A DNA stretch of 39,589 nt from a virus. The first letter of the stretch is position 1; each line of letters begins with the position of its first letter. The notes below the pieces were generated by a model, which made no database searches, was not told the origin of the DNA, and was given only the letters and a program-made list of their open reading frames with translations. The stretch is from positions 1 to 39,589 of IMG/VR virus record IMGVR_UViG_3300010885_008156; one strand, given 5' to 3'. The translations under genes were made by a program, and so were the position numbers. Below, one piece after another: positions 4,479-25,308 of the stretch.

Positions 4479-4480
4479 CC

Positions 4481-5275
4481 ATGAACTACAAGGGACAGTA
4501 TTCAGATCAACTCATGTACGTCGTAGGAGACGTTGTCACCATTGGTGGCAGTTCTTATGCGTGCAGGAAGATGACCAGCGGAGAATTTCCCACAGCCTCT
4601 TCGTCATGGACCATGATTGCTGCTGGAGGCGCAACTGGCGCAACTGGCGCTGATGGCCGTCCGGGCAAGGATGGCGAAAATGGCGTTGGCATCCCAGACA
4701 ATGGCGAGGAAGGGGAGATTCTTGTCAAACTCGGGTCTTCTCCATACGAATGCCGCTGGTCTCGCATCAATGCGGCAACGATTGGGGCTGCGAATCGGGC
4801 GCATCTGCACGCCATGTACGACGTTTCTGGACTGGAATCAGCCCTGAACCAGAAGGCAGAATCGTCTCATCAGCACGGGATTGCCGATATCGACACGCTG
4901 AAGCAGCAACTCGATTCCAAGGCAATGATGCAGCACCAGCATCTTGCATCGGACATCGTTTCTGGAACGATTGATGTTGATCAAGTCATCGCTGACTCGG
5001 TGAATGTCGGATCTGTCATCATTTCCGATCAGTCAATCAGCGGATCGGCTCGGATGTCGATCAGTCTGGACGGTGTTGATCGAGTGAGCATGGTCAACGA
5101 CGAGGTTCATATCTCCGGAAATGCCATCATCTCCAGACTTACGGTTACTAGTGGTGCAGACATCAAGTCATCGTCGCAAACTGGTAAGCGTGGCGACATC
5201 GTGATTGGATCCGACTACATCTTCGTGTGTGTTTCCGACAACAAGTGGAAGCGGACTCCGCTTCAGGAGTGGTAA
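4481..5275 (+). CDS. Tail-fibre-like protein with carbohydrate-binding-like and collagen-like segments
   Basis: A 264-residue protein beginning two bases after the adaptor gene. Residues 3-48 (YKGQYSDQLMYVVGDVV...W) look like a small CBM5/12-type chitin-binding fold with spaced aromatic residues. Residues 49-68 form short Gly-X-Y repeats (GATGATGADGRPGKDGENG), typical of trimeric phage fibres. The rest is beta-rich with Asn/Ser/Asp-containing turns and ends in a short domain with Trp and basic residues. It probably belongs to the tail fibre or tail appendage and may touch the cell surface. Domain naming is by motif only. Confidence 0.65.
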   Translation: MNYKGQYSDQLMYVVGDVVTIGGSSYACRKMTSGEFPTASSSWTMIAAGGATGATGADGRPGKDGENGVGIPDNGEEGEILVKLGSSPYECRWSRINAATIGAANRAHLHAMYDVSGLESALNQKAESSHQHGIADIDTLKQQLDSKAMMQHQHLASDIVSGTIDVDQVIADSVNVGSVIISDQSISGSARMSISLDGVDRVSMVNDEVHISGNAIISRLTVTSGADIKSSSQTGKRGDIVIGSDYIFVCVSDNKWKRTPLQEW

Positions 5276-7709: not shown

Positions 7710-7794
7710 TGGCTGGCAGTTGGGAGACAATGAGGTCAAGATTCCAGAGGGCTGGTACTGCGTGCCGCCGTCGTTCGTAGAGGAGCATAAGTAA
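7567..7794 (+). CDS. Small lipoprotein of the lysis region
   Basis: A 75-residue protein with a signal peptide MLLLIAVFLAVLALVFTTGC. The Cys at residue 20 sits in a lipobox, so it should be lipidated. The mature part ends with KIPEGWYCVPPSFVEE, a pattern seen in small phage lipoproteins beside holins. The ATG at 7567 has AAGG five bases upstream and GAGG further up. An in-frame ATG at 7489 would add 26 odd, Cys-rich residues and is less likely. It may serve as an outer-membrane spanin-like part of lysis. That role is inference. Confidence 0.65.
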   Translation: MLLLIAVFLAVLALVFTTGCTRTVLVSESSPIRMGPEVRGKIYTKTADGWQLGDNEVKIPEGWYCVPPSFVEEHK

Positions 7795-9194
7795 TGTCAA
7801 CCAAGATCCAACTTCGCCGCGACACCGCATCCGCTTGGACAAGCGCCAATCCCGCGCTCGCTGCTGGCGAGATCGGCTACGAGACCGATACCCGGAACAT
7901 CAAGATTGGTGACGGAACGACTCTGTGGAACAGCCTGAAGTATCAGGCTCCGTATTACACGGGAACGAATAGCACCCTTGCTAATGGAACGCTTTCGGTA
8001 GACCAGACCAACAACCGTGTTGGCATCGGAACTACTTCACCATCCACTTTGCTGCATGTGAAAGGATCTTACGCAACCGGACATGTGCGTATTGAAACAA
8101 CAGGAGATATTGGTTCCGGTTCTCCATGTTATGCAGGTTTTTACGGTACAACTGGAAGAGGTGGATATTTTGGATTTGGTGGCTCTTCCAATACGCTGGA
8201 CATGTGGAACGATGCGGCTGGCGTTACTAGATTTGCCACAAATAACACAGAACGTATGCGCATTGATTCTGCTGGTCTTGTTGGAATTGCAACAACTTCT
8301 CCGGCGGGGTATCTCGGCGTTGTTGGCGATGTGATCATTGGCAATCAAGCCACTACTGGCACTACTGGAACCACGCGGTTGGTTGCGTCTGCTGGCATCA
8401 ATTACATTCAGTCTGCTCAAGCCGCAACGGCAGGATCTGCTGCACCATTGGTCATTTCTGCTTATGGAGGAGGTGCTGAATGGATGCGCGTAACTAGTAG
8501 TGGTGTTACGTCAAGCGGCTTGATCACCGCTAATGCCGGACTAACTGTTCCAACTGGTCAGGCTCTGACGGTTGCTGGGAACGGAACTGTATCAGTTCCA
8601 GCAGGATCAATCGCCGGAGCAGCACTTGCAGACAACGGCGTGACCGTTGCAAAACTTTCACAACTGGCAGCAGGAAATTTCCTAGGAAATTCAACTGGAT
8701 CGACCGCAAATGTTGCTGCTGTTACTCAAGCGCAGGCAAGGACCATGCTTGGTCTTGTTGCTCCTGCTTATACAGCCCCCGTGGTTGATACAACTACATG
8801 GGTTGATCTTGCACTCACAGCAACTTCAACAGTCACCAAAAATTTTGATGCAACTACATTGCCAATTGGAGTTCCTGTAGTTGTAGCAATTAGATTTGCA
8901 AGAAGTTCTGGTAATGCTCAAATTGATTGCAATTTGGTTGTTGAGTCTTCTGAAACTGTGGTGATTTCATGCAGCGATCAAGCCACCACAACTACATCAT
9001 GGACTAATCCCGGTAGCGGAAATCTGAATTATTGTTATTGGTATAAGCGGAATGTTGCACAACTTCCTGACCCTGATGTTCCTCCTGTCACCGTTTCTGG
9101 AGCGCAAACTTATTCCGTGTTTACTTGGAGACAATCAACTGGAAATAGCACTAATGGACCGCGTTGCTGGGTGTATATGTTGAGGCTTTCCTAA
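7794..9194 (+). CDS. Tail fibre / receptor-binding protein
   Basis: A 466-residue protein. The first 50 residues (MSTKIQLRRDTASAWTSANP ... IKIGDGTTLWNSL) are the well-known short N-terminal domain of many phage fibres and of major tropism determinants, which attaches the fibre to the tail. Two VGI-TTSP segments (near 80 and 162) are typical of beta-helical fibre shafts. The last 150 residues form a distinct AT-rich beta domain with several Cys and Trp, probably the receptor-binding tip. Its start shares one base with the lipoprotein stop (TAATG). Confidence 0.82.
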   Translation: MSTKIQLRRDTASAWTSANPALAAGEIGYETDTRNIKIGDGTTLWNSLKYQAPYYTGTNSTLANGTLSVDQTNNRVGIGTTSPSTLLHVKGSYATGHVRIETTGDIGSGSPCYAGFYGTTGRGGYFGFGGSSNTLDMWNDAAGVTRFATNNTERMRIDSAGLVGIATTSPAGYLGVVGDVIIGNQATTGTTGTTRLVASAGINYIQSAQAATAGSAAPLVISAYGGGAEWMRVTSSGVTSSGLITANAGLTVPTGQALTVAGNGTVSVPAGSIAGAALADNGVTVAKLSQLAAGNFLGNSTGSTANVAAVTQAQARTMLGLVAPAYTAPVVDTTTWVDLALTATSTVTKNFDATTLPIGVPVVVAIRFARSSGNAQIDCNLVVESSETVVISCSDQATTTTSWTNPGSGNLNYCYWYKRNVAQLPDPDVPPVTVSGAQTYSVFTWRQSTGNSTNGPRCWVYMLRLS

Positions 9195-11353
9195 TGCCAT
9201 ACACGCAAGCGATCATCCCCTTGCGTGGCTGGATTACGGACACCGCGTATAGCGGTGTTCCGGAGGGATATACCCACGACATCCTGAACATGATCCCGGC
9301 GGATCCGTTCCGTCGAAAGATTCGACTTGGAACTCGTCCGGGCTTCAACCGGATGTACCGCTTCGCTACCAACTCGGTGGTCCAATGCCTTGTTCGCACC
9401 ACGGCGTTTAGCGGTGCAACCAATCCCGTGGTCAAGGATCGCGTGCTGGTGGTGAACGCTGGCAAGATCTATTACATCGATCCGGGTAATGATCCAGTTC
9501 AGGTGCTTGAGGATGGAACTAGCAGCACCGCCGCAGCGCTGAATACGACAGGGCGAATTGAAGGAGTGCAGCGAGGTCAGTACTGCTATTTCGTCGATGG
9601 CACGAACTATAAGAAAGTTGATCTGTTTGCCAATCCGCCGCATTGGCAGTCATGGAGCGGCGCGGATGGACCAGAAGACCATGTCAAGAAAGTCATCGGC
9701 GGAACGACTTTCACGGCAACTCTGATTGCGTTGTTTGGTGGACGGTTAGTTCTTGCTGGCGTTCGTCAACTTGAGAACGTCTGGTTCATGTCTCGGATTG
9801 AAAATCCGGATCATTGGGCCGCAAGTACATCAACGGCAGATGATGCTATTGCAGGAAATGATGGTCAATGGGGCGTTCCGGGTGACAACATTGTCTCGCT
9901 AATTCCATTCGGTCAGGGCAGCATCATCTTTGCTGGATCGAAGTCGATGTCCATGCTGACGCAGGATCCGGTCTTTGGCAATGCGTCAATCCAGCAGATG
10001 AGCCGCACCGTTGGCATTGTTGGTCCGCGTGCGTGGTGCAATGGTCCAGAGAAGACCGTGTACGTTCTCGCGCAGGATGGCTTGTATCGGCTGAATCCAA
10101 ACGATTTCAATGTTGATCGTGGCCAATTGGTTTCGTTGAGCAGGCTCGATTCGTTCTTTGACAACGTGAAGTGGGAAGATATCGATGCATCGCTCGTTTA
10201 TGATGTTGAGCGCCGAGGTCTGTGGATTTACCTGACTCGTACCGATCAGCCGACAAGCAGCACGCATCTGTTCTACTCTGATCAGGTTGACGGTTTCTTC
10301 CCGTTCAAGATGTACGATCCGACGTTTGTCGGCGCGTATTCCCATTGCCAGATGCTGACCACCGATGGTCGCAATCAAGTCGCCCTAATGGGAAGTAGCG
10401 ATGGGATGCTCGGCTACTTCGATCAGAAAGTCGTTGCTGGAATTGATGGGTATGTTGCGGCTGGATATCCGGTAGAGCGAAATCCAACTGTCCAGCAATC
10501 AATTGCCCAGCAAATCCCAAGCAGGATTTCGATTGGGCCGATGGTTTCAACGCAACCCGGTCTTGCATTCTGTAGCGAAGTCCAGATTGAACTTGGCGCT
10601 GACGTTTATCTCCCAGACACAAATGTGAAGGGGAGTGCAACCAATCCGCTCGCGCAATTGCTATCGGCTGACACGGCGCAGGAAGCGATTGCGGAGAACA
10701 TCAACTCACTATTGATTTCCGCGTTGGTGTCCATCACCGCAAACGGTGGAAATGCGAATTTGTCAGGGCCATCAGGAGTCGCTGGTAGCGATCCGCAATT
10801 GTCCCCTGATTACAACGGCGGCGGTGCTTCACAGACCGTCACCGAATACCTCGATGGTCAGTTTTCAGCGCCGATTGAAGGAACATATACCACTCAAGAC
10901 ACGTTCGTTGATCCTCTTCGTCGTGTTTACGAGGATAACGACAGCGTCTACGAATTGGTTCGCGGATCGATTGGTGGCGCTACTCGGTGGTACATCCGAT
11001 TCCAGAGCGGCGACTATCAAGACTTCCCGCTGTTTGTTCAGCAACAGGTGAACGGGCAGTACGCAGAAGATCCAAGCGTTGGCGAGTATCGATACACGGT
11101 TACCAACCCATCGGGCGGAATCGTGTCAACGCTTTCTACCGTGACTGATTCGATCTCCATCAACCTCTTTGAAGGCGCGACGGTCACAAGTCTTGGAAAT
11201 CTGGCAGAGGGAGCAAACAACCGGATGCGGTGTCGCGTTCGTGCAAACGCGATGTTCTTGCGTCTATCTTCCTCTGGGTATCCGTTTGCAATTGAACGCA
11301 TCGCCGCCAACCTAGAGCCTGTCGGCCCACGAAGGACGGTCATCGATGTCTGA
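9194..11353 (+). CDS. Tail nozzle (tail tube protein B-like)
   Basis: A 719-residue protein. Start ATG at 9194 overlaps the fibre stop (TAATG). An in-frame ATG 30 bases earlier is less likely. The N-terminal half looks like a beta-propeller: IRLGTRPGFNRMY, then ALFGGRLVLAGV, then NVWFMSRIENPDHW. These match the pattern of T7 gp12 / P22 gp10-like nozzle proteins ('NNRLLLAG...VWFSR-NP-W'). The C-terminal half holds beta-rich insertions. It would form the distal, closed end of the short tail. Together with the adaptor at 3738 it supports podovirus morphology. Confidence 0.7.
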   Translation: MPYTQAIIPLRGWITDTAYSGVPEGYTHDILNMIPADPFRRKIRLGTRPGFNRMYRFATNSVVQCLVRTTAFSGATNPVVKDRVLVVNAGKIYYIDPGNDPVQVLEDGTSSTAAALNTTGRIEGVQRGQYCYFVDGTNYKKVDLFANPPHWQSWSGADGPEDHVKKVIGGTTFTATLIALFGGRLVLAGVRQLENVWFMSRIENPDHWAASTSTADDAIAGNDGQWGVPGDNIVSLIPFGQGSIIFAGSKSMSMLTQDPVFGNASIQQMSRTVGIVGPRAWCNGPEKTVYVLAQDGLYRLNPNDFNVDRGQLVSLSRLDSFFDNVKWEDIDASLVYDVERRGLWIYLTRTDQPTSSTHLFYSDQVDGFFPFKMYDPTFVGAYSHCQMLTTDGRNQVALMGSSDGMLGYFDQKVVAGIDGYVAAGYPVERNPTVQQSIAQQIPSRISIGPMVSTQPGLAFCSEVQIELGADVYLPDTNVKGSATNPLAQLLSADTAQEAIAENINSLLISALVSITANGGNANLSGPSGVAGSDPQLSPDYNGGGASQTVTEYLDGQFSAPIEGTYTTQDTFVDPLRRVYEDNDSVYELVRGSIGGATRWYIRFQSGDYQDFPLFVQQQVNGQYAEDPSVGEYRYTVTNPSGGIVSTLSTVTDSISINLFEGATVTSLGNLAEGANNRMRCRVRANAMFLRLSSSGYPFAIERIAANLEPVGPRRTVIDV

Positions 11354-12167
11354 TCACGCTATCGATCAGTCCGAGTTGGAGCGGATCCGCCGATTTGAGC
11401 AGGCGCTTCTTTCCATGCCCCAAGTGAGCATGGAGACGGCCAGCCTCCTTCACGGCCAGATGTACGCGCGGACCATCTTCATTCCGGCTGGTACTGCGGT
11501 GACCGGGACTCTGACAAATCTGGACAACATCTGCATTGTGTCCGGAGACATCAGCGTCACTACGGACAACGGGATGCAGCGGCTGGTCGGATACCACGTT
11601 CTTCCTGCGTCCAAGGGGTACAAGCGCGTGGGGTACACCCATCGCGACACCTACTGGACCACGCTCATTCACACCAAGTCAGACACCGTTGAGGCGGCGG
11701 AAGACGAGATGACGAGTGAGACGCATCTTCTTCAGACCCGCCGACCCGGCATCGAGTTTGACTGGGCCAGCAAGGCTCGATCTGACTACAACACATTTGT
11801 GCGTGAGTTTGGTCTGCCGCTTGGATTCATCGATGCCGTCATGCGTCGTACCGACGATCTTGTCGAGACCGATGCGTGCTTCCGCAACATGGTCATGTCC
11901 GAGTCTAGGATCCACGGTATTGGCGTTGTCGCCATCCGTGAAATCTCTGCCGGGGAGTGCATCGCCCCTGCCCGTCGGGACCAAATGCGGTGCGTTGCTG
12001 GCCGCTTCACGAACCACTCCCATGAGCCGAACGCAGAATTCCGGGCTACCGGAATTGGCGACCATGTAGACATGATAGCGTTGTGTGATATTGCAGCGGG
12101 AAGTGAGATTACGGTGGATTATCGAACTTCTGGCCGAGTGGCGCACGCCCTAGAGATGGAGATCTGA
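11346..12167 (+). CDS. Cupin-like plus SET-domain protein (putative protein methyltransferase)
   Basis: A 273-residue protein overlapping the nozzle stop by eight bases. Residues 40-110 look like a cupin-type beta barrel (YARTIFIPAGTAVTG ... YKRVGYTHRDTYWTTL). Residues 187-260 carry SET motifs: SRIHGIGVVAIREISAGE, then GRFTNHSHEPNAEF (the NHSxxPN signature), then IAAGSEITVDY (E-x-x-x-DY, catalytic Tyr259). Only 13 residues separate the first strand pair from the NHS motif, so this is a very short SET core without the usual insert. SET proteins transfer methyl groups from S-adenosylmethionine to lysine. The target could be a virion or a host protein. Similar cupin and SET segments occur in other phages. 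Confidence 0.78.
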   Translation: MSDHAIDQSELERIRRFEQALLSMPQVSMETASLLHGQMYARTIFIPAGTAVTGTLTNLDNICIVSGDISVTTDNGMQRLVGYHVLPASKGYKRVGYTHRDTYWTTLIHTKSDTVEAAEDEMTSETHLLQTRRPGIEFDWASKARSDYNTFVREFGLPLGFIDAVMRRTDDLVETDACFRNMVMSESRIHGIGVVAIREISAGECIAPARRDQMRCVAGRFTNHSHEPNAEFRATGIGDHVDMIALCDIAAGSEITVDYRTSGRVAHALEMEI

Positions 12168-12168
12168 A

Positions 12169-13152
12169 ATGTCATTCATCGGAGCAGCAGTCGGAATCAG
12201 CGCTGGTGCAGCAGCCGCAATCGGTACTGGCCTTGCCGTTGGCGGCGTGGTGGCCGGAACGGGCGCTATCGCATCAGGAATCCTCGCCAAGCAAGCCGCC
12301 GATGCCAAGGCGCGTGCATATCGCACCATGACGGAATGGGCTGGAGGTCAGTATCAGGATCTCGGCAAGTACCAGCAAGAGAAGCAAGACAAGATCCTGA
12401 AGTCTTTCCTTGAGAACCGCACAACCAACTTGTCCCAGTACAAGGGTGGATACGAACAACTCATCGGTGATTTCGACAAGCGTTTCAAGGATCTGGAGAA
12501 CGCATACGCCCAGCAATCTTCTGGAATTACCAACCAGTTCCAAGAGGGAATGAGGGGTGTTCGCCAAACTGTCGAGGTTGGGCGAAACAACACGCTTGCA
12601 GCAATTGATCAGGCGACTACCCAAAACCTCGCTCGGATGCAGCAGTCACAGGCATTTACAGGACTTGGAGGAACATCATTCGGTCAATCTGCTCTTGCTG
12701 CCCAGCAGTCACAGGGCGCTCTTCAGAAGGGCGTTGTTCAGGAGCAGTACGCCAGTCAGTTGGCTGGAATCGAACAGGCGATGGTTCAAGGAACTACCAG
12801 TCTTGAACAGCAGCGGCTGGCAAATCTCACGCAGATGGCGCAAGCCCGTACTGGCGGTGGCTTGACACTCCAGCAGCAGTTCTTGCAGCAGCAGTTCGCG
12901 CAGCGTGAGGATGTTGCCCGTCAGCAGACTGCACTTGGCGCTGACTTCCTGAACGCCCAAGTCAACCTTGAGCGCGAACGAGTCGCTCGGGTGATGGGCG
13001 GAAAGCAGGCACAGGCGCAGTACGCCGGATCTGGATATCAGGCGGCGGCGGCAATTGTCGGCGGCGCAACCAGCGGTATCGCGTCTGGAATCATGGGTAT
13101 GTATCAGCCGTACATGGCCGGAGCCGCTTATTCGGCTGGCCTGCGAGCATAA
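12169..13152 (+). CDS. Internal virion / DNA-ejection protein candidate
   Basis: A 327-residue protein with a Gly/Ala-rich hydrophobic N-terminus (about residues 5-42) and a second one at the C-terminus (about 290-320). Between them lies a long helical Gln-rich part (LQQQFLQQQFAQ near 225). This build, two membrane-active ends around a coiled coil, is typical of podovirus ejection proteins that leave the virion and form a channel across the envelope. GGAG precedes the start. The sequence itself is not recognised as a named family. Confidence 0.6.
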   Translation: MSFIGAAVGISAGAAAAIGTGLAVGGVVAGTGAIASGILAKQAADAKARAYRTMTEWAGGQYQDLGKYQQEKQDKILKSFLENRTTNLSQYKGGYEQLIGDFDKRFKDLENAYAQQSSGITNQFQEGMRGVRQTVEVGRNNTLAAIDQATTQNLARMQQSQAFTGLGGTSFGQSALAAQQSQGALQKGVVQEQYASQLAGIEQAMVQGTTSLEQQRLANLTQMAQARTGGGLTLQQQFLQQQFAQREDVARQQTALGADFLNAQVNLERERVARVMGGKQAQAQYAGSGYQAAAAIVGGATSGIASGIMGMYQPYMAGAAYSAGLRA

Positions 13153-13163
13153 GGAGAATCACG

Positions 13164-13706
13164 ATGTCGGCAGGAACACCACAGCAGGACATGGAGCGGC
13201 AGAGCGCCCAGAACGCCACCTATATGGGAAACCTTGGACGGTTCTTCATGTACGCGGGAACCGGGATGGCCCAAGGAATTGGCGCTGGACTTGCCAATAC
13301 GGATCTCAACAACCCGTGGCGGGGTGCGGGAATGGCTATTCAGGGTGGTCTTGGAATGGCAAATGCCGCGCAGCAGACCCAGTTTCAGTACGACACCGAG
13401 CAGGCGCAGATGCCGTTTACGGTCGAGAAGGCCAAAGCGGCGGCAGCGCTTCGGCTGGATGAGTATCAGGCAAAGTTGCAGAAGGATCTTGAAAACGAGA
13501 AGGCGATGCTTGGGACTTTCAAAGCATCAAAGACCGAGTCTCGTCGCAAGACCGAAGAAGAGATGCTTGATACCGGGGAACTCAACATCGGTGCGTCGTA
13601 CCTTTCTCCGGCTGGAAAGGTCTTTCTTGCCCAGCAGGGTCTTGCCGCAAGCCGTGCAGCCCAGTACCTGACCGGAGTGAATTCCGGCGTGAGGGGGATG
13701 GCGTAA
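13164..13706 (+). CDS. Small internal virion protein candidate
   Basis: A 180-residue protein. Residues 20-70 are Gly/Met/Ala-rich (MYAGTGMAQGIGAGLA, then GAGMAIQGGLGMANAA). Residues 80-140 form a charged amphipathic helix with many Lys, Glu and Gln. AAGGAGAATCACG before the ATG is a strong ribosome-binding site. It lies between two candidate ejection proteins and has similar composition, so a role in the internal core or ejection apparatus is likely but not proven. Confidence 0.55.
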   Translation: MSAGTPQQDMERQSAQNATYMGNLGRFFMYAGTGMAQGIGAGLANTDLNNPWRGAGMAIQGGLGMANAAQQTQFQYDTEQAQMPFTVEKAKAAAALRLDEYQAKLQKDLENEKAMLGTFKASKTESRRKTEEEMLDTGELNIGASYLSPAGKVFLAQQGLAASRAAQYLTGVNSGVRGMA

Positions 13707-15172
13707 TGGAACCAGCACTTGATACCGCCATCAATAGACTTGATGGATCCATGAGCAATCCTCGCAAGAATCGCGCCATGTACGCGAACGGGTTCCGCCA
13801 ACAGGAGATGCAGAACAATGTTCCGCGAATTTCCGAACAGGATCTCCCGCCGATTGTCAATCAGGCTGTCGAATACGCGGACCGGGACCGTACTGCGTAC
13901 ATCGGCAATCCGACCAACGTCAAGAATCCGACGTTCATGCAGGCCGTAAGCGGCATTGAGAACGGTGACTTTGAAGGTCTGGAGATGCTGAACTTCGGAG
14001 CGCTCGCCGACGGCACTCCGGCGGCTGCGTTCGTCGATGAAGACGGCCAGCGCCAAGTCATCAAGTTGACCGTGCCGCAATGGATGGCTGCAATCGAACA
14101 TCGTTCGCAGGGCCGTCAGCAACTGGAGCAGCAGCGCATCCTCGATGCCAAGCGTCGCCAGTTCCAGCCGTACTTCAACAACATGGCAAAGAAGGTCTCT
14201 GCAGCCAACGACCCGGATATTGGTGGCTACCTTGCCGCCATGTATCAGAACGATCCGGAAATGGCTGTCAAGCAACTCGGCGAGTTCATGCGGCAGCAGC
14301 AGAAGCAGGACGCGGAGATGATCACTTGGCGCGGCAAGCCAGTCACCAAGGAGTTCGCGCAACAGGCGCTGAACATGGAGTCTGCTGAATACAAGCAAGG
14401 CAACGATTCGTATCGGCAGAGTATGTCTGCATATGCGGACCAGCCGTATGCAGCGCCGCTCATCGAGAACATGATCGCTCTTCGGCGCAAGCCAGAGCAG
14501 TACTCGATGCCAAGCACCATGACCCTTGTGGACAATTTGAATCAGCAGAATGCTGGTCCGCTTCCAATGGTGTCGCTCTTGCACGCCATGACCAAGCCGA
14601 TGATGACCCCGCTTCCGCAGCCGATTACCTTGCCGCATCGTGGCAATGACGGCCAGTACAACCTTGCGGACATCACGAATCTGCTCAACAATTTCAATTC
14701 CGTGAGCCAGCGGCTTGGTTGGAGTCCGGTTCTTGCTGCCGACGAAGTTGGCTTGTCTGCTCTTGTCGATGCCCTAGACATCGCCAACAATTCGCAGGGT
14801 TCCCTGTCGAAGGTCGCAGCGCCGTCCGCCCGTACTGTTCCTGTGTCGATTCAGCGCCAGCAGATGGCGAATGAGGCATACGCGCAGCGCGAGACTCTGA
14901 AGTACGGCGGCGGGATGCCGCAGCAGGATCAGGGAAGTGGCCAGCAGCAGGGCGGCGTTTCAGAGCAGGAAGCACTTGCAATCCTGTCAGAAGCCGTGTC
15001 GATGCTGCAAGTAAATTCGACAGAAAACCGAACGGTTGTGCTTCAGCGAATTGCCAGCCTTGGAAATGATCCGGCTCGCCTAAAGGCTGCGAATCAATAT
15101 AGCGATGAGCAGAAGCAGATGATCATTCAGGCGGCACAGATCATTAGTCAGTATCAGAATCAGCCCAAGTAA
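13706..15172 (+). CDS. Internal virion protein candidate
   Basis: A 488-residue protein, start overlapping the upstream stop by one base (TAATG). It is helical, Gln- and Met-rich, without signal peptide or membrane segment. The C-terminal 80 residues are low-complexity Gln/Gly followed by a helical domain (EQEALAILSEAVSMLQ). No catalytic motif was found. The place between ejection-like genes and the giant polyvalent gene suggests it is packaged in the capsid. Confidence 0.55.
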   Translation: MEPALDTAINRLDGSMSNPRKNRAMYANGFRQQEMQNNVPRISEQDLPPIVNQAVEYADRDRTAYIGNPTNVKNPTFMQAVSGIENGDFEGLEMLNFGALADGTPAAAFVDEDGQRQVIKLTVPQWMAAIEHRSQGRQQLEQQRILDAKRRQFQPYFNNMAKKVSAANDPDIGGYLAAMYQNDPEMAVKQLGEFMRQQQKQDAEMITWRGKPVTKEFAQQALNMESAEYKQGNDSYRQSMSAYADQPYAAPLIENMIALRRKPEQYSMPSTMTLVDNLNQQNAGPLPMVSLLHAMTKPMMTPLPQPITLPHRGNDGQYNLADITNLLNNFNSVSQRLGWSPVLAADEVGLSALVDALDIANNSQGSLSKVAAPSARTVPVSIQRQQMANEAYAQRETLKYGGGMPQQDQGSGQQQGGVSEQEALAILSEAVSMLQVNSTENRTVVLQRIASLGNDPARLKAANQYSDEQKQMIIQAAQIISQYQNQPK

Positions 15173-15183: not shown

Positions 15184-18100
15184 ATGCCAGACAATAATCA
15201 GCAGTCGTTGCTCGATCTCGTTCGCGAGATGCCTGTCGAGAAGAACTATCTCGATCTTGTGCGCGAAATGGGCATGGAGAAGCGCCAGCAAACTGCGCCC
15301 GGTGGCATGGAAACGCAGGCTGCTGGCGAAACCGCTGGAGCCATGTTGTCTTCCGGTCTTACGCCATTCGGATTTCAGCGTGGCGCAGAAGCCCTGTCGG
15401 TTGTCATGGCGAAGTTGTTCGGCGACGAAGGTACTGGTCAATTGGCAGAGCAGATCTATCGCGCTGATGACAAGACCTTGCAGGCTGGCGGTGGAATCCG
15501 GGATACGGTTGGCCGATCTCTGGCTGGAATGACTGCCGCCACCGTTCGCGGTGCAGCAACAACGATTGAAGCGGTTGTGCCGGATGTGGTTGATCCGATG
15601 GCAAAGGTTGAAGGATTCACTCGCGGTATGGCAAATACTGCAACGGTGACTTCAGATACGTTTACCGACAAGGTCACCGCTGCCGTTACCAATGGCGTTG
15701 CCAACATCGCACTTGGTGTTGCTGCTCCGATGGCTGCTCCAGCGCTGTTCTTCCTTCAGGGTGCTGGCGGCGCTGCAAACGAATACGATCAGGCGTACAT
15801 CGATGGGATGCTTTCCCAGCGGGACGGAATCTATAAGCCGGGTGACAAGTACATTGCTGCGCTCAAGGGCGGTGTCATTGAAGGTGTAACCGAATGGCTT
15901 GGAGCGAAAAGCGCAAAGTATCTTGGCGCTACATTTTGGGGTAAGCAAGCCGCCAAGTCCATTGAGAAGATGAATCCGGCAATGAAGTTTGCCGTCGGTA
16001 CTGGGCTTGCCTATGCGTCGGAAGCGGCTGAAGAAGGCGGCGCTTCTATTGCCTATTCGCTGACCAAGAACTGGCAGGGACAGGAGCGCCCTGAATTCTG
16101 GGATGGCGCGAAGGAAGCATTTGCCGATGCGTTTTACGGCGGATTCGGTGGCGCTGGCGCACACCCGCTTATTGCCGTTGGTGAAGCAGCACAGGCGAAG
16201 CGGATTCGGAACCGCATCAGCGCAGAAATCGCGAGAAGCAACAACGCATTCGCTGACCCCGACTTCTGGGATGCAATGCCGAAGGCGACCGTTGATGCGA
16301 TGCGTGCGATGTCTCCGCAGGAGCGGCAAGCAGAACTTTCATCCGCTCGCGACGCATACCACCAGTCAAACGCAGATCGTCAGGCTGGTGCTGCTGCGTT
16401 GAATTCAGCGGCGAGCGCTCTTGACAACGCGCAGAAGGAACTGTCTCGCGCCAACAAGCGCGGCAAGCAGGACGCAATTGACGTTGCGACCAAGAACGTA
16501 GAGGCTGCACAGGCTGGATTCGATTCGGCATTTGCCAATCAGTCAATTCTTGGTGCTGAACTGTTGGCCGCTCGCACGCGCCTGATGACCATCGCGGCGT
16601 TCAATGGGCGGAATACTCCGACCATCAAACTGAACACCACGGATGTTCTGGCTGCGGAGAAACTATCGGTTGCCGCTCCCACCAGCGATACGGACAGCAA
16701 GGTCCAGTCCGAGATGGAGTCTCTTGGGTACGACGTTCAGTTCTACGATCCCACGGATCCAAACGACACTCGCCCTGCATTCTACAGCCCATCGACTCCC
16801 AACACGGTTTACCTTCGTTCCGGCATGAAGGAATCCGAGTTTGCTGCTGCGATGGGATATGCCTATCACGAAGTCATCCATGTAATTCAGGCGACCGACG
16901 GAGATCTCTACAAGGCTCTACGGCAGTCGTTTGACGAACAATCCACGGTGGAGGCTGGTGTCCAGTACTTCAACGACAAGTTGCGAGCGGATGACAGGCT
17001 GGCCCAGACTGCTGCCGGGACCATCGCAGCGGAAGTCGGTGGTGTCAGCGCTCGTCCCATGATGCAGGGGCAGATGGTTGAGGAGCGTGCCGGACGCGCT
17101 CTGCTTCAGGCTGAAGGCGAAGCGCAGATCACCCAGTCTGCGATGGAAGAATTCTTCAAGACCGGAAAGGCTCCCGGCCTACTCGGTCGCGTCATCATCA
17201 AGTTGGGCCTTCGTGGCAAGCAGGCGGCAACTGCTCTGCGCGTGCGTTCGGTGCTGATGAAGGGGGCGCAGGAGCGCATCGCTCGTAAGGCTGCTCCCGC
17301 CAAGGTCGGAAGCGAAGTAGCGCTGACTGAATTTGGTCGGCAGATGGTTGAAGCAATGGGGGTTGCTGGCGCTGTCCAGATGGCCGAGACTGCCCCAGCG
17401 CCAACCGCCCCATCGACTACGGCTGCTGCCCCTGCCGCCGCTGCGGCTGCGCCGTCTGCCGCTCCCGTCCCACCGTCCGCTTCGGCGGCGGTGCTGACGG
17501 CGAGCGGTATGACACCTGCAGAAGCGGCACGGGCCGAGACTCCGGACTTCAAGGCGATGGTCAACCTTGCCGTGAACAACATCCGAAAGGGCGACAAGAC
17601 GTTCGCGCAGGGCAAGCGCCTGTACCCCATCATGGCTGCAATGGAATCCGATCCGTCAACGCTGTCAGATGATGACAGGCAAATCGGTCGGCAGATGCAG
17701 CAGGAGATGTACGCCGAGTTCGGCCCCAAGTACGCAACGCTGTGGGCGCGTCCGTCCAAGCCGAAGAGCGACGTTGGTCACAAGCGAGAAAAGGCTACTG
17801 GTCGCTACGTTGGCGCTCCTGACTGGATTGGCGGATCCCCTGCCAAACTGAAGCAACTGCGGACCAAGTTGCGCCAACTCGCCTTGGAGGGCGAGGATGG
17901 CAAGATGTGGTATGAGAATTCAAGCAGGGCAATTCTCGACATCGTCAACGGCGACGTTGATGAAGCAGAGAAAATCGTCGCCCTGATTGCCATCTATTCG
18001 CCAAACGCCACCGTTCCGGCAAACATGGCGATGGCGCTCACGGCGTACTACCAATGGAAGGCCGGAGTGGAAATCAAGGCTGGCCTTGGTAGTGGAAACG

Positions 18101-21100
18101 AGAAGGCCACGGATCTTCTTGTCAATGGCAAGGCTTGGAGCGGCATCAAGACCAACTCGTTCTATCAGAACCTGATGGTTGAAATTGCTCCGGAGAAGTT
18201 GGACGAAGGCGTTGCCACGATGGATATGTGGATGGCGCTGGCGTTTGACTACGGAGACAAGGCGCTCGATCAGGGTCCGAAGTACAAGTTCTCTGAACGC
18301 GAGATCCAGCGTCTTGCGGGAGAACTTGGATGGAAGGCGCATCAGGTTCAGGCCGCGATCTGGACGGCAATGAAGGGGCGCATTGACCCGATCCGTGCTG
18401 ATCTGAAAGAGCATGAACTGAAGGTCGGAATCGGAGAGATGGTCAAGAAGGTTGATCAGGAAACCAAGGAGGTTTCTGACGTATATCGCGTGAAGAAAGA
18501 CCGCGAATACGACCATTTCAAGTTGGCTCACAAGATGGGCATGGCACGCGCCATTACCAAGGAAGGTGTTGCTGACAGCAAGTACGACTTCAGCAACGCG
18601 ATCAATGATCGTCTGGCACAGTTGTCGTGGGAAGCCACCCCAAGCACGGCGACTGGCCGATCACTTCCCGGAATCCACACGGCTACGACCGAGCAGAAGT
18701 TTGAGTACCTGAATGCCATTCGCGAAATCCTGTTCAAGGGCGGTCGCGATGTGATCGCCGATATGGCTGGCCTGCCGCAGGGACGAACCTTCACCGGATT
18801 CAGCGCGTGGGGCAGTCAGGTCGGCGCTGGAGCGCAGACTCTTGTCCCGGTTCCGATGGCGAATACTGGCAAGAATCGGGCCATCAAGCCAGAGGCAAAG
18901 AAACTTCTCAATCTTGCATCATTGATCAAGGGGTTTGTGCTTGAGCAGGACTCGGTTGTTTATCACACGCCAATCTGGGAAGAAGCAAAGATTCGCCACA
19001 ACGGCATCAGCCTGATGACTGATCGTGCGCTTGACGAATCTGAAATGAACTTGCTTTATCAGAAGATCTACGACCGATTCGGAATGTGGGATCTTGCGCC
19101 CGGATACCGCGAAGACGGAATCAGAGTGTTGAACTTTGTCGAAGGTCTCAAGGACAAAGATTTCCAGCAGGGGATGAAAGAAGTGCTTTCGTCCTTGCCG
19201 GATGACTTCGGTGGTGGTACTGTCCGTGTGAAGACCTTCCGGTCGGACGGCAATTACCTCGGCAACAATTGGGAGAAGAATCCAAATGGCGAAGATTATC
19301 TATCTGAAATCCAGTCCGACCGACCCGATCTACTCGATGGGGTCAGAGATCTACGCCGCCGTGTCCAAGCCGTCAACCAAGACTTCAATGCCAAGTACGG
19401 ATGGGGATCAACAGCAGTCTATGCCGCCCGACGAAAGGCAACTGTCGATGCATCAGTCATACGAGCAGGCTCTCTCGGAGTGGCTCGGGAATACGGAAAC
19501 GCAGTTGCAGGAGCCTCTCGTTTCACAGGAATCCACTTCTCCGGAGAATCCCGCGCAAGGCTGAATTCAAGGTTCTACGGGACGGGGATGCGCGGAGCCG
19601 AGGCAAGTCGCGTCAACACATCCGAAGATGACCGCCTTCGTCATCGTGTGTACTTCTATGTTGATGATGGAAACGGGGTAGTTCCAGAATCTGGTGTTGG
19701 AGATCAGATTCACGGGGTGATTCTCAACAACATCTACGACGCAAATCGCGATCCGCTGAAATTGCGCGGACGGGTAAAGAACGCAAACGAGTTTGAATCT
19801 GCGGTGGCAGATGCAGGATTCGATGGCGTGTACTTTCCGAAAGCACTTTCCCAGCGCGGCATTGACATGGGCGCTATTGCTCTCATCGGCAAGCGTTCTG
19901 TCCCAGTCGAGCGCAAGGGTTCTTACAACGAGAACGTGCTTCGTCAGATGCAGATTGTTGAACGCGGCGGAACGCTCTCGGCCCGTTTCAAGAAGACCAC
20001 GGGTACGCCGAGCGAAACAACGACATCGACAGAACTTGCCAAGCGGTTTGAGCAGCGGACAACTGGCGTGAGCGAACCGATCAAGAACTTGATCAACACG
20101 CTCAACTCAATCATCACGGGTCGAGATTTTGCGGCGCTTGCGCCGACGGCAAACCAACAGGCGGTCGCAAATGCAGCCGCCGGAAATTACGTCGAAATTT
20201 ACCCAAGCGTCCGCGCCAAGTTCATGTACTTGGACGAGACGATCATGCTGTCCAAGAAAGATGTTGATGGCGACGGTCGGATATTCGCGCATGAATTGAT
20301 GCACGCCGCAACATCGGTCCGGATCGATGATTATGTTCGTCGATTCCTGAACGAAGTAACGAGAGGTCCGAGTGGACTAATTGATCTTTCGTTGGTCGAG
20401 CAATACAAGAAGTACAACTTCACGACGTTGTCTGGCAAGGCGTACATGGATGGCCTTGCGCTGATGTCGAATCATCCAAAGGTTGATCCAGCAATGAAGG
20501 AACTGATTGACTGCTTCCTTGAAGCAGCAAAATCAAGTCCATCGAATTACACGATAATGACGGAAGGTCGGGTGCGCCGTACCGGAAGATTTACTTACAC
20601 CGGAAGCAATCCGATTGAGGTTGTTGAAGAACAGAAGGTACTCAAGAAGTACCGATTCCCTCTTCCGGGTCAAACAGAATCTACTTACGAAGAGGTTCCG
20701 TACACCCAATATCAAGTTGTCATCAAGAATGAAACCGAGAAGGGTGATCTCGTAGTTGGTCATTACAACAACAGACAACAAGCAGATTTTGCGGCAAATG
20801 AACTACGGTCTGGAAAGCCAACTTCCTCTCTCAATTCGTTGTTTCCGCAGACTGGTACTGGCTTGGTTGCAGAAACGAAGATGACTGGTAAGGGCGCTGT
20901 CAATCAGGGCCAAGGTGGAGACGTTGTAGTCAATCGCGGAGGAATGTACGGATTCGGAAATCTGCATGAGTTCATCGCCGAGTGCGCCAACAATGCCGCA
21001 TTCCAAAACGTCCTTCGCAAGTTGCCGTCGAAGGGTCGTGGAGGAACCGTGTTCACTCGCTTGATGAGCGCGATTCGCCAGTTGCTCGGATTGTCTGAAG

Positions 21101-24100
21101 ACAAGCAGACGATGCTTGACGATGTCATGCGATTGACCGAGGAAATCGCAACGGTCGATATGACTGCTGCAACTCAAGGTCGCCGACAGGCTGTCGCTGG
21201 TGAAACTAACGCTCCTGCTATCAAGCCAAGACTGTCATACGGATTGGCTATTGCCAATGGGTTGACGGAAGTTCGGAAGACGGATGATGACACATTCCGG
21301 TTGGTCTACGAAGTTCCCGGCATTGATCTTGTGAGTCGATATGGATCAGATGGTTTGACGATCAGTATTGGCAAGACCGACAAACTTCCGATTTACATGA
21401 CGCTATATCGGGATTCAAATGATGGGAATTGGTACATCGATGAAGCGAAGTACCGATCCCGTTATCTCTACGACCTTGGATATCCCGAGACAACCGGACT
21501 GAATCTTGGGAAAACGAAAACAGCGGCTGCTAAAAAGATTGCGAGCATTGTTTCCGACATGGCTTTGTTGGTGTCGAACTACAACGAAGCAAACTTGGAA
21601 TCGGTACGACTCGACGCAATTGCTCGTAATCCAAATGTCAAGGTAACTGTAAATGACACTCGGGCTGCGTCAAGTAGTGCGTCTTTTGCTGCCCGTCCTT
21701 CCGTGTCTCCGGAAGCAAAGGCTGACGCTGCTGCGGTTGCCATCTTTGATGTTGCCAAGAATCGTCTTGGCACGCTGCTGAATTCTCTTCCCAAGGACAA
21801 GACCAAGTGGTCTGCTTCTGATGTTGCTGCCGTCAAGGCTGCTCGCAAGGAAGTGATGGCGGCTGTCCGTGGCCTGAAGCGCAAACCGAAGGGTGCAGAT
21901 GTCGGAACGATGGCGTATGGCATGGGCCGTCGCGAAGGTCAGGTCGGCGGCATGATCAAGGGGCGCAAGGAAGGTATGCGCGAAGAGCGCGAGCGCCAGC
22001 GTGCCGAAGCAATTGCCAAGCGCAAGGAACTTCGCACCTCATTTGTTGCGCGTGTTGAGAAACTCCGCGCCCAGATCGAAGCCGCCGCCGAGAAGAACGA
22101 TGTGTTGCGGCAGCGCATGGAAATGATGCGGAAGATGGAACGCCTGAATCGCGATGCCGCTGCTGAGCGTGCTGGCAAGCGCGTCATCAAGGCGTGGTTC
22201 GCTGGTCAACAGAAGGGTTCAACCGCTGGGTACAACGAAGCCAAGCGGGAGATGAAGGAGATCCGCAAGGCGGCAGCGGAAGTGATCGGCACGCTGCCGC
22301 GATCCATGCGTGGCAAGTACATCGATGCGGTCGCCCGGATGAAGACCGCCGCTGGCATCGACCAGATCGCTCGTCGCGTGGTTCGCGATCTCGCCATTGC
22401 CGAGGCTGCGGAAACAGTCGGAGATATCAACCGCCTGATCAAGCGGGTGAAGAAGGTTGGGCTGCGTGCCGAAACCCGAACCAATCTCCTGACTGACTTG
22501 ACGGCTGCTCGATCCATGCTCGCGTCCGGAAAGAAGCGCCTGCTCCCGTTCACCAACACGGCTGATCTTGCAAACCGGACGGCTGCTGCCCGGTCGTTGC
22601 AGGAAGGCGTGCTGCATGAGTTCGACATGGAGCGTCAGGAATACCGCGACGCTCGCGACGAACGCGCAATGGAAGCAACGGCTGACGCGATTGCGCTCGG
22701 CAAGACTCTTGCAGCGCTGCCCAAGATTGAGCGCGGCAAGTTGTCATCGGTCGCGCCCAAGCGTGGCATTGTCGCCGACATCCTTGTGTCCAATTCCAAT
22801 GCCGATATGTACACCCTGATGCACGCCATCGAAGGTGGCGCAAACGGGATCCTCGGGAAGATCTGGACTGGCATCAACGCGGCCAAGGGAAGCATGACGC
22901 TTGCTCGCAAGTCGATTGACGAGAAGATCGACAAGGCTCTGCGAGATGCTGGGTACAACGGTTACGACGGATATGCCACTACTGCCGCTGGTCTGTATGG
23001 AGACTCTGCTGCCGAGTCGGTATCCGTGACCATTGGTGGCAAGGCCATGACCATCACGACCGACCAGTTGCTGAACATCGCTGCGATGGACCAGCAGACG
23101 GTCGATCTGCTGACCGACGCTACGAATCCGGCTGGCGACAAGGGCGCTCCGATTGTGTTCTCGACGGATCGAAACGCCAAGCCGATGTATCTGACGAAGC
23201 AGGAGTTTGATGCCATTCGTGCTGGCCTGTCAACCGGACAGCGCAATCTGATCGACACGATGAAGTCGATCCTTGATACGGACATCCGCCCCGCTGCGTT
23301 CGACATTCACTTCCAGATCCACGGGCGACAGCCGAGCATCGTGCCGGGGTACTTCCCGCGCAAGCGTCTCGGCGACGAGATCTCGGAGCAGGGCATCGAT
23401 CCGAATATGCAGCCGGGTGCGGTGGTGAACACCATGCTGTCGAACGCAGGGTTCCTCCAAGAGCGCGTGGCCGCAAAGTCCACGATGGTCATCGGCGGAA
23501 TGATGCGGACGATGGATGACCACATCGAGGAATCCCTGCGACTGATTCACTTGTCGCTGCCATTGCGCCATGCCATGTCGGTGCTGAAGTCCGCTGCTGT
23601 TCGCACCGGAATCGAGGAGACGATGGGCGATGGCGGAAACGACAGCATCAGGAAGTTGGTACTGAACGGAGTCGGCCTGTCCGGCAAGCCGCAGGGTGGA
23701 CTCATCGAGGGGATCAACGCCAACATCAGCGGCGCTCTGATCACCATCAACCCCAAGACTTGGCTGCGTCAGATCGGCGGCGTGTTCCGTCTCGCTTCCG
23801 AAATGCCAGCGGGTGCATGGGCTGCTGGTGTCGGTCGCATGATTGTCATGTCTCCGAGCGAGCGATCCAAGATGGCGCAGTCCATCGAGTCCATCAACGG
23901 GTACTTCTACGACAGGCATCGCCGCAGTCAGGTCGGCATCTTCGCCAACGTGCTTGGCAACGCCAACAATTCCAAGGACCGATGGACTGCTGCGTTGCAG
24001 TCATCTGCGCGTTCATTCCGTGCCATCGGCGAGGATGTTGCGGCTGGTCGATTCACGCAGGCCGCTCGCGATGTGCGCGACGGCGTGCTGCCCATCAGCC

Positions 24101-25005
24101 GAGTGATAAAGAGTGCGGACGGCGTGCTTCGCATCATCGACAGACAGATCATGCTGGCCGCTTTCCTCGGCGCACGGGCCGATGTGATGAAGACCAACCC
24201 GTCGATGAGCGCAGCGGAAGCGGATGTTGCTGCTGCTCGGCTGGCTGAATATGCGTTCCGCAAGACGCAAAACGTCAGCGATCCGATGGATGACACGGTG
24301 TTCGCCGCTCGGCAGAAGTTCTCGCAGGGTGTCGGTCGCCTGATGTTCCCGTTCAGCAGCGACCCGCTGAAGGGTTACAACCAGTTGCGCCGCGCCATCG
24401 CCAGCAGGGATCCGTCTCTCATCGCCCGTACCACCGCCGGGATCACGGGCAATATCGCCACCGCTGCGGCGGTCAACCCCCTGTGGATGACGGCTGGTCT
24501 CGCCATTGCCAACGCGCTGGGCGGAAGCGGAGATGACGAGGATGACGAGATGATCCGGCGCATGGAGATGGAGAAGCAGTACCGCTACCTCGGGCCTACG
24601 ATTGCCGCAGACGCTTCCGCCGTGGCGTTTGGCTATCTGGGCATGGCGGCTGGCGCGATGATCGACGGGGCAATGGGAAGCCCGGAACGGGCAGACGATG
24701 TGCTTGAGCCGCTCGTCGTGCGTTTCCTCGGCGACACCACCCAGTACATCGCCAAGGGTCAGATGTCGATGGGCGCGAAGGCTGCGTTGCAAATGGCTGG
24801 CGTGCCTGTGGTTGCGCCATTCTCCACCGTCGAAAGCGTCTACCGTGCCGCGAACCCCAGCGACTCCAAGTTGCTGGAGTACTACCGAAAGTTGGATAGG
24901 GCTGGACAACTTAACCTCAAGCAGCGCCAGCGCATGAACGTGCTGGCTGCGGCGGAACGGATGAGGCTTGCCCGAGAGAAGCGGGACAAAGTACTGAACC
25001 CCTGA
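15184..25005 (+). CDS. Giant polyvalent protein: two zincin-like domains, ADP-ribosyltransferase-like domain, LPD-type regions
   Basis: A 3273-residue protein, 25 percent of the genome. In order: LDLVREM repeats at 10-16 and 23-29; hydrophobic stretch near 170-200; coiled coil 380-450; metallopeptidase-like HEVIH at 562-566; Ala/Pro linker 733-775; helical domain 860-1160; region ending in SEIQSD near 1373-1380; ADP-ribosyltransferase-like region about 1440-1580 (GIHFS, YGTGMRGAE, RVYFYVDDG, DAGFDGVYF); second metallopeptidase motif HELMH at 1703-1707 with NLHEFIAECANN near 1925; charged helices 2220-2500; large C-terminal domain with hydrophobic patches. This matches the 'polyvalent protein' architecture (Iyer and colleagues, 2017): effectors injected with phage DNA against host defences. 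Its place after ejection proteins fits. Activities are inferred from motifs only. Confidence 0.8.
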   Translation: MPDNNQQSLLDLVREMPVEKNYLDLVREMGMEKRQQTAPGGMETQAAGETAGAMLSSGLTPFGFQRGAEALSVVMAKLFGDEGTGQLAEQIYRADDKTLQAGGGIRDTVGRSLAGMTAATVRGAATTIEAVVPDVVDPMAKVEGFTRGMANTATVTSDTFTDKVTAAVTNGVANIALGVAAPMAAPALFFLQGAGGAANEYDQAYIDGMLSQRDGIYKPGDKYIAALKGGVIEGVTEWLGAKSAKYLGATFWGKQAAKSIEKMNPAMKFAVGTGLAYASEAAEEGGASIAYSLTKNWQGQERPEFWDGAKEAFADAFYGGFGGAGAHPLIAVGEAAQAKRIRNRISAEIARSNNAFADPDFWDAMPKATVDAMRAMSPQERQAELSSARDAYHQSNADRQAGAAALNSAASALDNAQKELSRANKRGKQDAIDVATKNVEAAQAGFDSAFANQSILGAELLAARTRLMTIAAFNGRNTPTIKLNTTDVLAAEKLSVAAPTSDTDSKVQSEMESLGYDVQFYDPTDPNDTRPAFYSPSTPNTVYLRSGMKESEFAAAMGYAYHEVIHVIQATDGDLYKALRQSFDEQSTVEAGVQYFNDKLRADDRLAQTAAGTIAAEVGGVSARPMMQGQMVEERAGRALLQAEGEAQITQSAMEEFFKTGKAPGLLGRVIIKLGLRGKQAATALRVRSVLMKGAQERIARKAAPAKVGSEVALTEFGRQMVEAMGVAGAVQMAETAPAPTAPSTTAAAPAAAAAAPSAAPVPPSASAAVLTASGMTPAEAARAETPDFKAMVNLAVNNIRKGDKTFAQGKRLYPIMAAMESDPSTLSDDDRQIGRQMQQEMYAEFGPKYATLWARPSKPKSDVGHKREKATGRYVGAPDWIGGSPAKLKQLRTKLRQLALEGEDGKMWYENSSRAILDIVNGDVDEAEKIVALIAIYSPNATVPANMAMALTAYYQWKAGVEIKAGLGSGNEKATDLLVNGKAWSGIKTNSFYQNLMVEIAPEKLDEGVATMDMWMALAFDYGDKALDQGPKYKFSEREIQRLAGELGWKAHQVQAAIWTAMKGRIDPIRADLKEHELKVGIGEMVKKVDQETKEVSDVYRVKKDREYDHFKLAHKMGMARAITKEGVADSKYDFSNAINDRLAQLSWEATPSTATGRSLPGIHTATTEQKFEYLNAIREILFKGGRDVIADMAGLPQGRTFTGFSAWGSQVGAGAQTLVPVPMANTGKNRAIKPEAKKLLNLASLIKGFVLEQDSVVYHTPIWEEAKIRHNGISLMTDRALDESEMNLLYQKIYDRFGMWDLAPGYREDGIRVLNFVEGLKDKDFQQGMKEVLSSLPDDFGGGTVRVKTFRSDGNYLGNNWEKNPNGEDYLSEIQSDRPDLLDGVRDLRRRVQAVNQDFNAKYGWGSTAVYAARRKATVDASVIRAGSLGVAREYGNAVAGASRFTGIHFSGESRARLNSRFYGTGMRGAEASRVNTSEDDRLRHRVYFYVDDGNGVVPESGVGDQIHGVILNNIYDANRDPLKLRGRVKNANEFESAVADAGFDGVYFPKALSQRGIDMGAIALIGKRSVPVERKGSYNENVLRQMQIVERGGTLSARFKKTTGTPSETTTSTELAKRFEQRTTGVSEPIKNLINTLNSIITGRDFAALAPTANQQAVANAAAGNYVEIYPSVRAKFMYLDETIMLSKKDVDGDGRIFAHELMHAATSVRIDDYVRRFLNEVTRGPSGLIDLSLVEQYKKYNFTTLSGKAYMDGLALMSNHPKVDPAMKELIDCFLEAAKSSPSNYTIMTEGRVRRTGRFTYTGSNPIEVVEEQKVLKKYRFPLPGQTESTYEEVPYTQYQVVIKNETEKGDLVVGHYNNRQQADFAANELRSGKPTSSLNSLFPQTGTGLVAETKMTGKGAVNQGQGGDVVVNRGGMYGFGNLHEFIAECANNAAFQNVLRKLPSKGRGGTVFTRLMSAIRQLLGLSEDKQTMLDDVMRLTEEIATVDMTAATQGRRQAVAGETNAPAIKPRLSYGLAIANGLTEVRKTDDDTFRLVYEVPGIDLVSRYGSDGLTISIGKTDKLPIYMTLYRDSNDGNWYIDEAKYRSRYLYDLGYPETTGLNLGKTKTAAAKKIASIVSDMALLVSNYNEANLESVRLDAIARNPNVKVTVNDTRAASSSASFAARPSVSPEAKADAAAVAIFDVAKNRLGTLLNSLPKDKTKWSASDVAAVKAARKEVMAAVRGLKRKPKGADVGTMAYGMGRREGQVGGMIKGRKEGMREERERQRAEAIAKRKELRTSFVARVEKLRAQIEAAAEKNDVLRQRMEMMRKMERLNRDAAAERAGKRVIKAWFAGQQKGSTAGYNEAKREMKEIRKAAAEVIGTLPRSMRGKYIDAVARMKTAAGIDQIARRVVRDLAIAEAAETVGDINRLIKRVKKVGLRAETRTNLLTDLTAARSMLASGKKRLLPFTNTADLANRTAAARSLQEGVLHEFDMERQEYRDARDERAMEATADAIALGKTLAALPKIERGKLSSVAPKRGIVADILVSNSNADMYTLMHAIEGGANGILGKIWTGINAAKGSMTLARKSIDEKIDKALRDAGYNGYDGYATTAAGLYGDSAAESVSVTIGGKAMTITTDQLLNIAAMDQQTVDLLTDATNPAGDKGAPIVFSTDRNAKPMYLTKQEFDAIRAGLSTGQRNLIDTMKSILDTDIRPAAFDIHFQIHGRQPSIVPGYFPRKRLGDEISEQGIDPNMQPGAVVNTMLSNAGFLQERVAAKSTMVIGGMMRTMDDHIEESLRLIHLSLPLRHAMSVLKSAAVRTGIEETMGDGGNDSIRKLVLNGVGLSGKPQGGLIEGINANISGALITINPKTWLRQIGGVFRLASEMPAGAWAAGVGRMIVMSPSERSKMAQSIESINGYFYDRHRRSQVGIFANVLGNANNSKDRWTAALQSSARSFRAIGEDVAAGRFTQAARDVRDGVLPISRVIKSADGVLRIIDRQIMLAAFLGARADVMKTNPSMSAAEADVAAARLAEYAFRKTQNVSDPMDDTVFAARQKFSQGVGRLMFPFSSDPLKGYNQLRRAIASRDPSLIARTTAGITGNIATAAAVNPLWMTAGLAIANALGGSGDDEDDEMIRRMEMEKQYRYLGPTIAADASAVAFGYLGMAAGAMIDGAMGSPERADDVLEPLVVRFLGDTTQYIAKGQMSMGAKAALQMAGVPVVAPFSTVESVYRAANPSDSKLLEYYRKLDRAGQLNLKQRQRMNVLAAAERMRLAREKRDKVLNP
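19286..19564 (+). CDS. Candidate overprinted gene inside the polyvalent gene (92 residues)
   Basis: An ATG at 19286 opens 92 codons in a shifted frame inside the polyvalent gene. Upstream lies TTGGGAGA (19269-19276), the same ribosome-binding site used by several early genes at 25309, 29230 and on the minus strand at 31810 and 33493. The shifted frame uses common codons (atc, aag, gcc, cag), while the main frame here uses several less common ones (cta three times, aga, ata, cga). The product is hydrophilic, Ser/Gln/Pro-rich. The main frame carries SEIQSD and the lead-in to GIHFS, so both frames look meaningful. The function is unknown. Confidence 0.35.
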   Translation: MAKIIYLKSSPTDPIYSMGSEIYAAVSKPSTKTSMPSTDGDQQQSMPPDERQLSMHQSYEQALSEWLGNTETQLQEPLVSQESTSPENPAQG

Positions 25006-25069: not shown

Positions 25070-25261
25070 ATGGAAACACCACACCCCCGTCGCCACGCAA
25101 CGCTGACGATCAAGGCTGCAACGAAGCGCCGAATCGAGCAGTTTGCGGAGGCTGGTCGATGGACGCAATGCGCGTTGATCGATCTGCTGTTGGATCGGTA
25201 TGAGCATGAACTGCCGCAGCGCGTCAGTTCGGAAACGCCTGAAACCCGTTCGTACATTTGA
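25070..25261 (+). CDS. Ribbon-helix-helix (Arc/CopG-like) small protein
   Basis: A 63-residue basic protein, first gene of the early operon. Residues 9-14 (HATLTI) form a plausible beta strand, 16-28 helix one and 31-45 helix two (TQCALIDLLLDRYE), the layout of ribbon-helix-helix DNA-binding proteins, which act as dimers. AAAGGAGAGACAC before the ATG at 25070 is a very strong ribosome-binding site. An upstream in-frame ATG at 25037 lacks one. It may autoregulate the promoter at 25006 or control the late genes. Confidence 0.65.
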   Translation: METPHPRRHATLTIKAATKRRIEQFAEAGRWTQCALIDLLLDRYEHELPQRVSSETPETRSYI

Positions 25262-25267
25262 CAAACG

Positions 25268-25293: not shown

Positions 25294-25308
25294 GTTTGGG
25301 AGAGACCA

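Follow-up and report, generated by a model that had tools for sequence, protein, structure and literature searches.

INTRODUCTION

SET enzymes are familiar chiefly from their work on chromatin. Most SET domains, though not all, carry a SET-I insert, which in general helps to define substrate specificity. Among viral relatives of the protein described here, the closest one with a solved structure is vSET of PBCV-1 (A612L; PDB 1n3j and 3kma), which acts on a host histone. Both are viral minimal SET domains with GxG, NHS..PN and a final tyrosine, but vSET is a stand-alone protein of 119 aa from an algal virus, whereas the SET domain analyzed here is fused to a cupin domain, has about 20 fewer core residues, and belongs to bacterial phages. 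The best structural match and the best profile match are both MLL-type (KMT2) SET domains, in comparison with which the phage domain is without the SET-I insert and the cysteine-rich post-SET region and has a cupin partner instead.

With respect to gene position, the closest described systems are found in the short-tailed phages P22 and BPP-1. In P22, gene 14 lies directly upstream of gene 7, and its product, a member of Pfam DUF2824 (PF11039), is annotated only as a head morphogenesis or virion stability factor. Relatives of the cupin-SET gene take this same position, directly upstream of a gp7-like gene, but gp14 is unrelated to them in sequence, has a predicted GNAT fold, and contains neither a cupin nor a SET domain. 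In BPP-1, Bbp23, recorded as a "short tail fiber" (PHROG 12032), belongs to the same cupin family (43.8% identity over residues 1-137) and, like most cupin-SET genes, is followed by a gene that is gp7-like, if weakly so. Bbp23 is without a SET domain; what it has instead is a neighboring GNAT gene, Bbp24, with which it shares 4 nt, an arrangement of GNAT and same-family cupin genes that recurs in relatives of BPP-1. P22 gp7 itself has been described as the counterpart of the outer-membrane ejection protein gp14 of T7 (PMC8954989).

Automatic SET labels in phages are already known, and the fusion is present in PHROGs, where the family of the cupin-SET protein (PHROG 34170) is listed without an assigned function. 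We found no paper on the phage cupin-SET family in literature that excluded most subscription journals. A SET domain protein is among the listed open reading frames of phage Ps15, with nothing further reported (PMC9025141); a second candidate report of a phage SET protein (PMC9022992) was rejected, as it refers to I-set domains.

RESULTS AND DISCUSSION

A predicted cupin barrel joined to a minimal SET domain

The window is a stretch of viral DNA of 39,589 nucleotides (IMG/VR record IMGVR_UViG_3300010885_008156), in which a check of open frames delimited the cupin-SET gene exactly, from ATG to TGA, at the coordinates given in Table 1.

Table 1. Features of the window around the cupin-SET gene
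Feature	Coordinates	Strand	Basis
Tail fibre, Mtd-type N-terminal domain	7794..9194	+	Pfam Mtd_N 1.3e-15
Upstream tail gene	9164..11353	+	Weak match to PHROG 8094 tail appendage, E 1.3e-4
Cupin-SET protein, 273 aa	11346..12167	+	Open frame; Pfam SET 1.6e-10; PHROG 34170; AlphaFold model
Cupin jelly-roll domain, residues 27-111	11424..11678	+	Structure match; PHROG 12032 / 24280
Minimal SET domain, residues 175-263	11868..12134	+	MLL3 Z 11.0; vSET Z 9.8
GxG motif, residues 191-193	11916..11924	+	G191 in 63/64 and G193 in 64/64 relatives
RFTNHSHEPN motif, residues 220-229	12003..12032	+	R220, N223, H224, N229 invariant in 64
EITVDY motif, residues 254-259, with presumed catalytic Tyr259	12105..12122	+	E254, Y259 invariant in 64
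Next gene, putative ejection protein, 327 aa	12169..13152	+	Position; hydrophobic Gly/Ala-rich N-terminus
Two genes, putative internal virion proteins	13164-13706, 13706-15172	+	Position alone
Giant 3273-aa protein, end of block	15184..25005	+	Pfam DUF7178 at 904-1066, E 1.9e-10; PHROG 3842

Pfam recognized a SET domain (PF00856) at residues 213-259, where the score of 41.8 bits (E 1.6e-10) is well over the curated cut-off of 22.4, and matched SET in 11 of the 11 members of our first full-length alignment; chance does not account for the match. The best profile match was of the MLL type (KMT2; E 1.3e-10). The motifs named in an earlier, sequence-only reading of this DNA are all present (GIG, RFTNHSHEPN, and EITVDY). 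An AlphaFold model built from 64 aligned relatives has a mean pLDDT of 86 and two well-formed domains, whose relative orientation is uncertain (pTM 0.51) and whose linker is weak. Across both active-site halves, residues 175-263 of this model superpose on the SET domain of MLL3 (Z 11.0, 1.7 A over 82 residues) and on vSET (Z 9.8, 2.2 A over 82 residues, 28% identity). The fold, with the two motif-bearing halves that make up the pseudoknot, was judged by superposition alone. On the strength of the model, the C-terminal domain almost certainly has the SET fold, as the sequence-only reading had proposed; the lack of such a fold, which that reading had named as grounds for its rejection, is not what the model showed. 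That reading had also called the core very short, and it is: only 30 residues lead from G193 to N223, and the 82 residues of the model compare with about 104 in vSET and about 123 in MLL1. The SET-I insert between the two SET halves is absent, leaving a core smaller than that of vSET by about 20 residues and smaller than that of MLL1 by about 40.

Nine positions of the SET domain (S187, G193, G219, R220, N223, H224, N229, E254, and Y259) are invariant in 64 diverse cupin-SET relatives. HMMER aligned the EITVDY motif to that of NSD2, and we take its Y259 to be the catalytic tyrosine position of known SET enzymes. The invariance of these nine residues argues that catalysis has been retained in life, and from sequence and model together, the cupin-SET protein is probably an active methyltransferase. 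The same residues bear on another scenario, in which the protein is a catalytically silent chaperone whose cupin and SET folds keep ejection proteins or tail parts soluble and in which methylation is irrelevant. This would be in line with the loss of the insert that usually shapes substrate specificity, with the hydrophobic and lysine-poor nature of the gp7-like proteins, and with the fact that about half of the gene slots surveyed below hold a cupin alone. However, binding alone would not demand that N223, H224, and Y259, which are positions of SAM contact and catalysis, be invariant in all 64 relatives, and we consider a silent chaperone unlikely.

The N-terminal part had been read as cupin-like, in agreement with the model, whose residues 27-111 superpose on HP0902 (Z 10.3, 2.3 A over 85 residues) and match KdgF and REUT_B4087 too. 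Pfam gave no significant cupin match for the window protein. The HxH...E metal-binding motif of enzymatic cupins is absent, the window having GTLTNLDNICIVSG at this place and the relatives varying. Since the metal motif is not retained, the barrel is probably not a cupin enzyme and more likely serves for binding than for catalysis. Relatives that consist of the cupin domain alone exist, Bbp23 of BPP-1 among them.

PHROG 12032 and PHROG 24280, which match the N-terminal part, carry the labels "short tail fiber" and "tail fiber adhesin." These labels raise the question of whether the cupin part is a virion component, a short tail fibre or similar, with the SET domain riding in the particle and modifying tail or receptor-binding proteins, and the tail genes upstream, which include the Mtd_N fibre, point in the same direction. 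On the other hand, the source of the "short tail fibre" label for this cupin family is PHROG and record names alone, with no experiment behind it found in the literature searched, and an ejection gene is a more consistent neighbor of cupin-SET than tail genes are. A role as part of a fibre thus seems improbable to us.

Position upstream of putative ejection genes

In the window, the cupin-SET gene is tightly packed between its neighbors, the upstream tail gene overlapping its start by 8 nt and the next gene beginning 1 nt past its stop. The fibre further upstream carries the N-terminal domain of the major tropism determinant, which is another tie to BPP-1-like phages. Family profile searches gave no significant match for either of the two putative internal virion proteins. 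The giant open reading frame that follows has one small recognized region, the DUF7178 domain, and VvAW1 carries a giant gene at a similar place. Exonuclease VIII-like and RecT-like annealing genes stand after the structural block (25258-27217). A DNA search of cultured phages found no match to positions 9000-14000 of the window.

In 78 of 84 loci, the next gene lies on the same strand at a distance of 60 nt or less, and in 59 loci it belongs to a single family that is homologous to P22 gp7 (E 1.3e-15). The gene two before cupin-SET is commonly of the P22 gp10 family. With a gp7-like gene next to it and a gp10-like gene two before it, cupin-SET stands at the place of P22 gene 14. The product of the next gene in the window has a strongly hydrophobic N-terminus, and it was rejected as a gp7 homolog, having no detectable homology, so that its putative role in ejection follows from its position. 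Only by analogy with the relatives, then, would the cupin-SET gene of the window be said to lie directly upstream of a gp7-like gene. The earlier assignment of the gene to the tail gene block calls for refinement: a tail gene precedes it and putative ejection (internal virion) genes follow it, and the P22 gene 14 position, upstream of ejection genes, describes this context better than a tail block does.

The suggestion that the enzyme may methylate a virion protein fits this conserved place adjoining the ejection genes. It had been suggested as well that the protein is packaged, which would allow it to be injected along with the ejection proteins and to methylate a host protein early in infection. 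The gene does adjoin ejection genes and a giant protein of a kind that may be delivered, and vSET provides a family precedent for action on a host histone, but the closest positional analog, P22 gp14, carries the annotation of a morphogenesis protein rather than of an ejected one. We regard an injected enzyme as very unlikely.

When gp7-like proteins were inspected for a SET-specific substrate lysine, none was found to be conserved or enriched beside SET genes; if anything, these proteins have fewer lysines beside SET genes than beside cupin-only genes.

A gene slot shared by SET and GNAT-fold proteins

To survey the slot upstream of gp7, loci were collected through the gp7-like gene alone, so that slot content did not choose the loci; our first gp7 alignment was too diverse to serve as a search query. 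Among 97 scorable loci, the slot held a cupin in 47, a cupin-SET fusion in 25, a GNAT in 11, a gp14-type protein in 1, and an unrecognised protein in 13; overall, a cupin, cupin-SET, or GNAT stood at this position in 84 of the 97. Nearly half of the surveyed slots thus contain a cupin without a recognized enzyme, implying that the enzyme is dispensable in many phages. One of the unrecognised slot proteins is weakly DUF2824-like. Four of them (L386, L396, L397, and L435) appeared GNAT-like by eye, of which Pfam and hhalign backed only L435, and weakly. One more of the 13, encoded upstream of the gp7-like gene at L427:2307-2939, is a DUF6445 protein; by eye its sequence resembles that of a 2-oxoglutarate oxygenase, and it may be a protein-modifying enzyme of a further type in the slot.

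P22 gp14 was rejected as a sequence homolog of the cupin-SET protein (hhalign probability 0.5%). A model of its family (pLDDT 87) has a GNAT fold, with a Z of 16.8 over 145 of 151 residues. Sequence profiles did not link P22 gp14 to the GNATs of the Bbp24 type, and predicted fold alone connected them. None of the few papers that we found, in literature that excluded most subscription journals, reported a GNAT fold for P22 gp14 or DUF2824. One locus (L322:2917-3369) encodes a member of the gp14 family, which is annotated as head morphogenesis and has the predicted fold of a GNAT acetyltransferase.

We propose a model for the cupin-SET protein. In this model, the gene product would be a phage protein-lysine methyltransferase, with lysine as the presumed target. 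The minimal SET domain would be its catalytic module, and the cupin barrel fused to it would provide docking or a scaffold. Presumably made together with the ejection proteins, it would most likely methylate at least one of them, or else a tail or portal protein next to them, while virions are being assembled in the producing cell. In other short-tailed phages, the place that it seems to take is that of GNAT-fold proteins (P22 gp14 and, beside Bbp23, Bbp24). That the cupin-SET protein methylates an ejection or neighboring virion protein during assembly is a reading to which we give slightly less than even credence; against it count the lack of a SET-specific lysine in gp7-like proteins, the next gene of the window, which is not detectably gp7-like, and the many phages with a cupin but no recognized enzyme. 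A wider hypothesis is that short-tailed phages, P22 with its gene 14 included, reserve a slot just upstream of the gene for their outer-membrane ejection protein for interchangeable protein-modifying enzymes (methylation by SET, acetylation by GNAT, and perhaps others), which would control assembly or delivery by modifying ejection proteins covalently; we offer this as a speculation that is, on present evidence, rather doubtful.

The presence of a conserved, catalysis-ready SET domain joined to a cupin across hundreds of phage sequences would be a sign that phages methylate proteins of their own particles. The GNAT fold at the same place provides a concrete hypothesis for P22 gene 14, and it makes a classic laboratory phage a place to test what covalent modification does in genome ejection.

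The two types of enzyme seldom occur together. A GNAT gene was found near the cupin gene in 36 of 74 cupin-only loci (directly upstream in about 30, mostly with a 4-nt overlap) and near cupin-SET in 2 of 80, counts that are inflated by related sequences and are not independent, since SET and GNAT loci are confined to few clades. Strict exclusion was rejected, as two loci carry both nearby; their GNAT genes are L038:2397-2847 and L037:7141-7585. On a tree of 124 cupin domains, made from a short alignment of 125 columns and with many forks left open, the three states (SET, GNAT, or cupin alone) need eight changes, and the well-supported branches require the SET state to have changed three times or more. 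The window's own group comprises six cupin-SET sequences and lies, together with 32 GNAT-partnered cupins, in a clade with a support of 99.

Distribution of the fusion

PHROG 34170 matches residues 11-261 of the window protein (E 3.4e-38), spanning most of the fusion. A profile scan found cupin-SET relatives encoded in 462 IMG/VR stretches, the best 80 of which were analyzed. Among the matches listed from about 85,000 bacterial and archaeal genomes, seven are near full-length fusions, all on metagenome-assembled contigs; the remaining listed matches cover the SET part only and come mostly from Burkholderiales. The full fusion is found in public phage records of Pseudoalteromonas PH1, Rhodoferax P26218, and zth2-2 and in assembled podovirus genomes from Manatee Spring. 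In one record, MW202557, the cupin-SET gene (4356-5240, plus strand) carries no CDS annotation, and a CDS named contryphan-vn-tryptophan is annotated antisense to it (3809-4375, minus strand).
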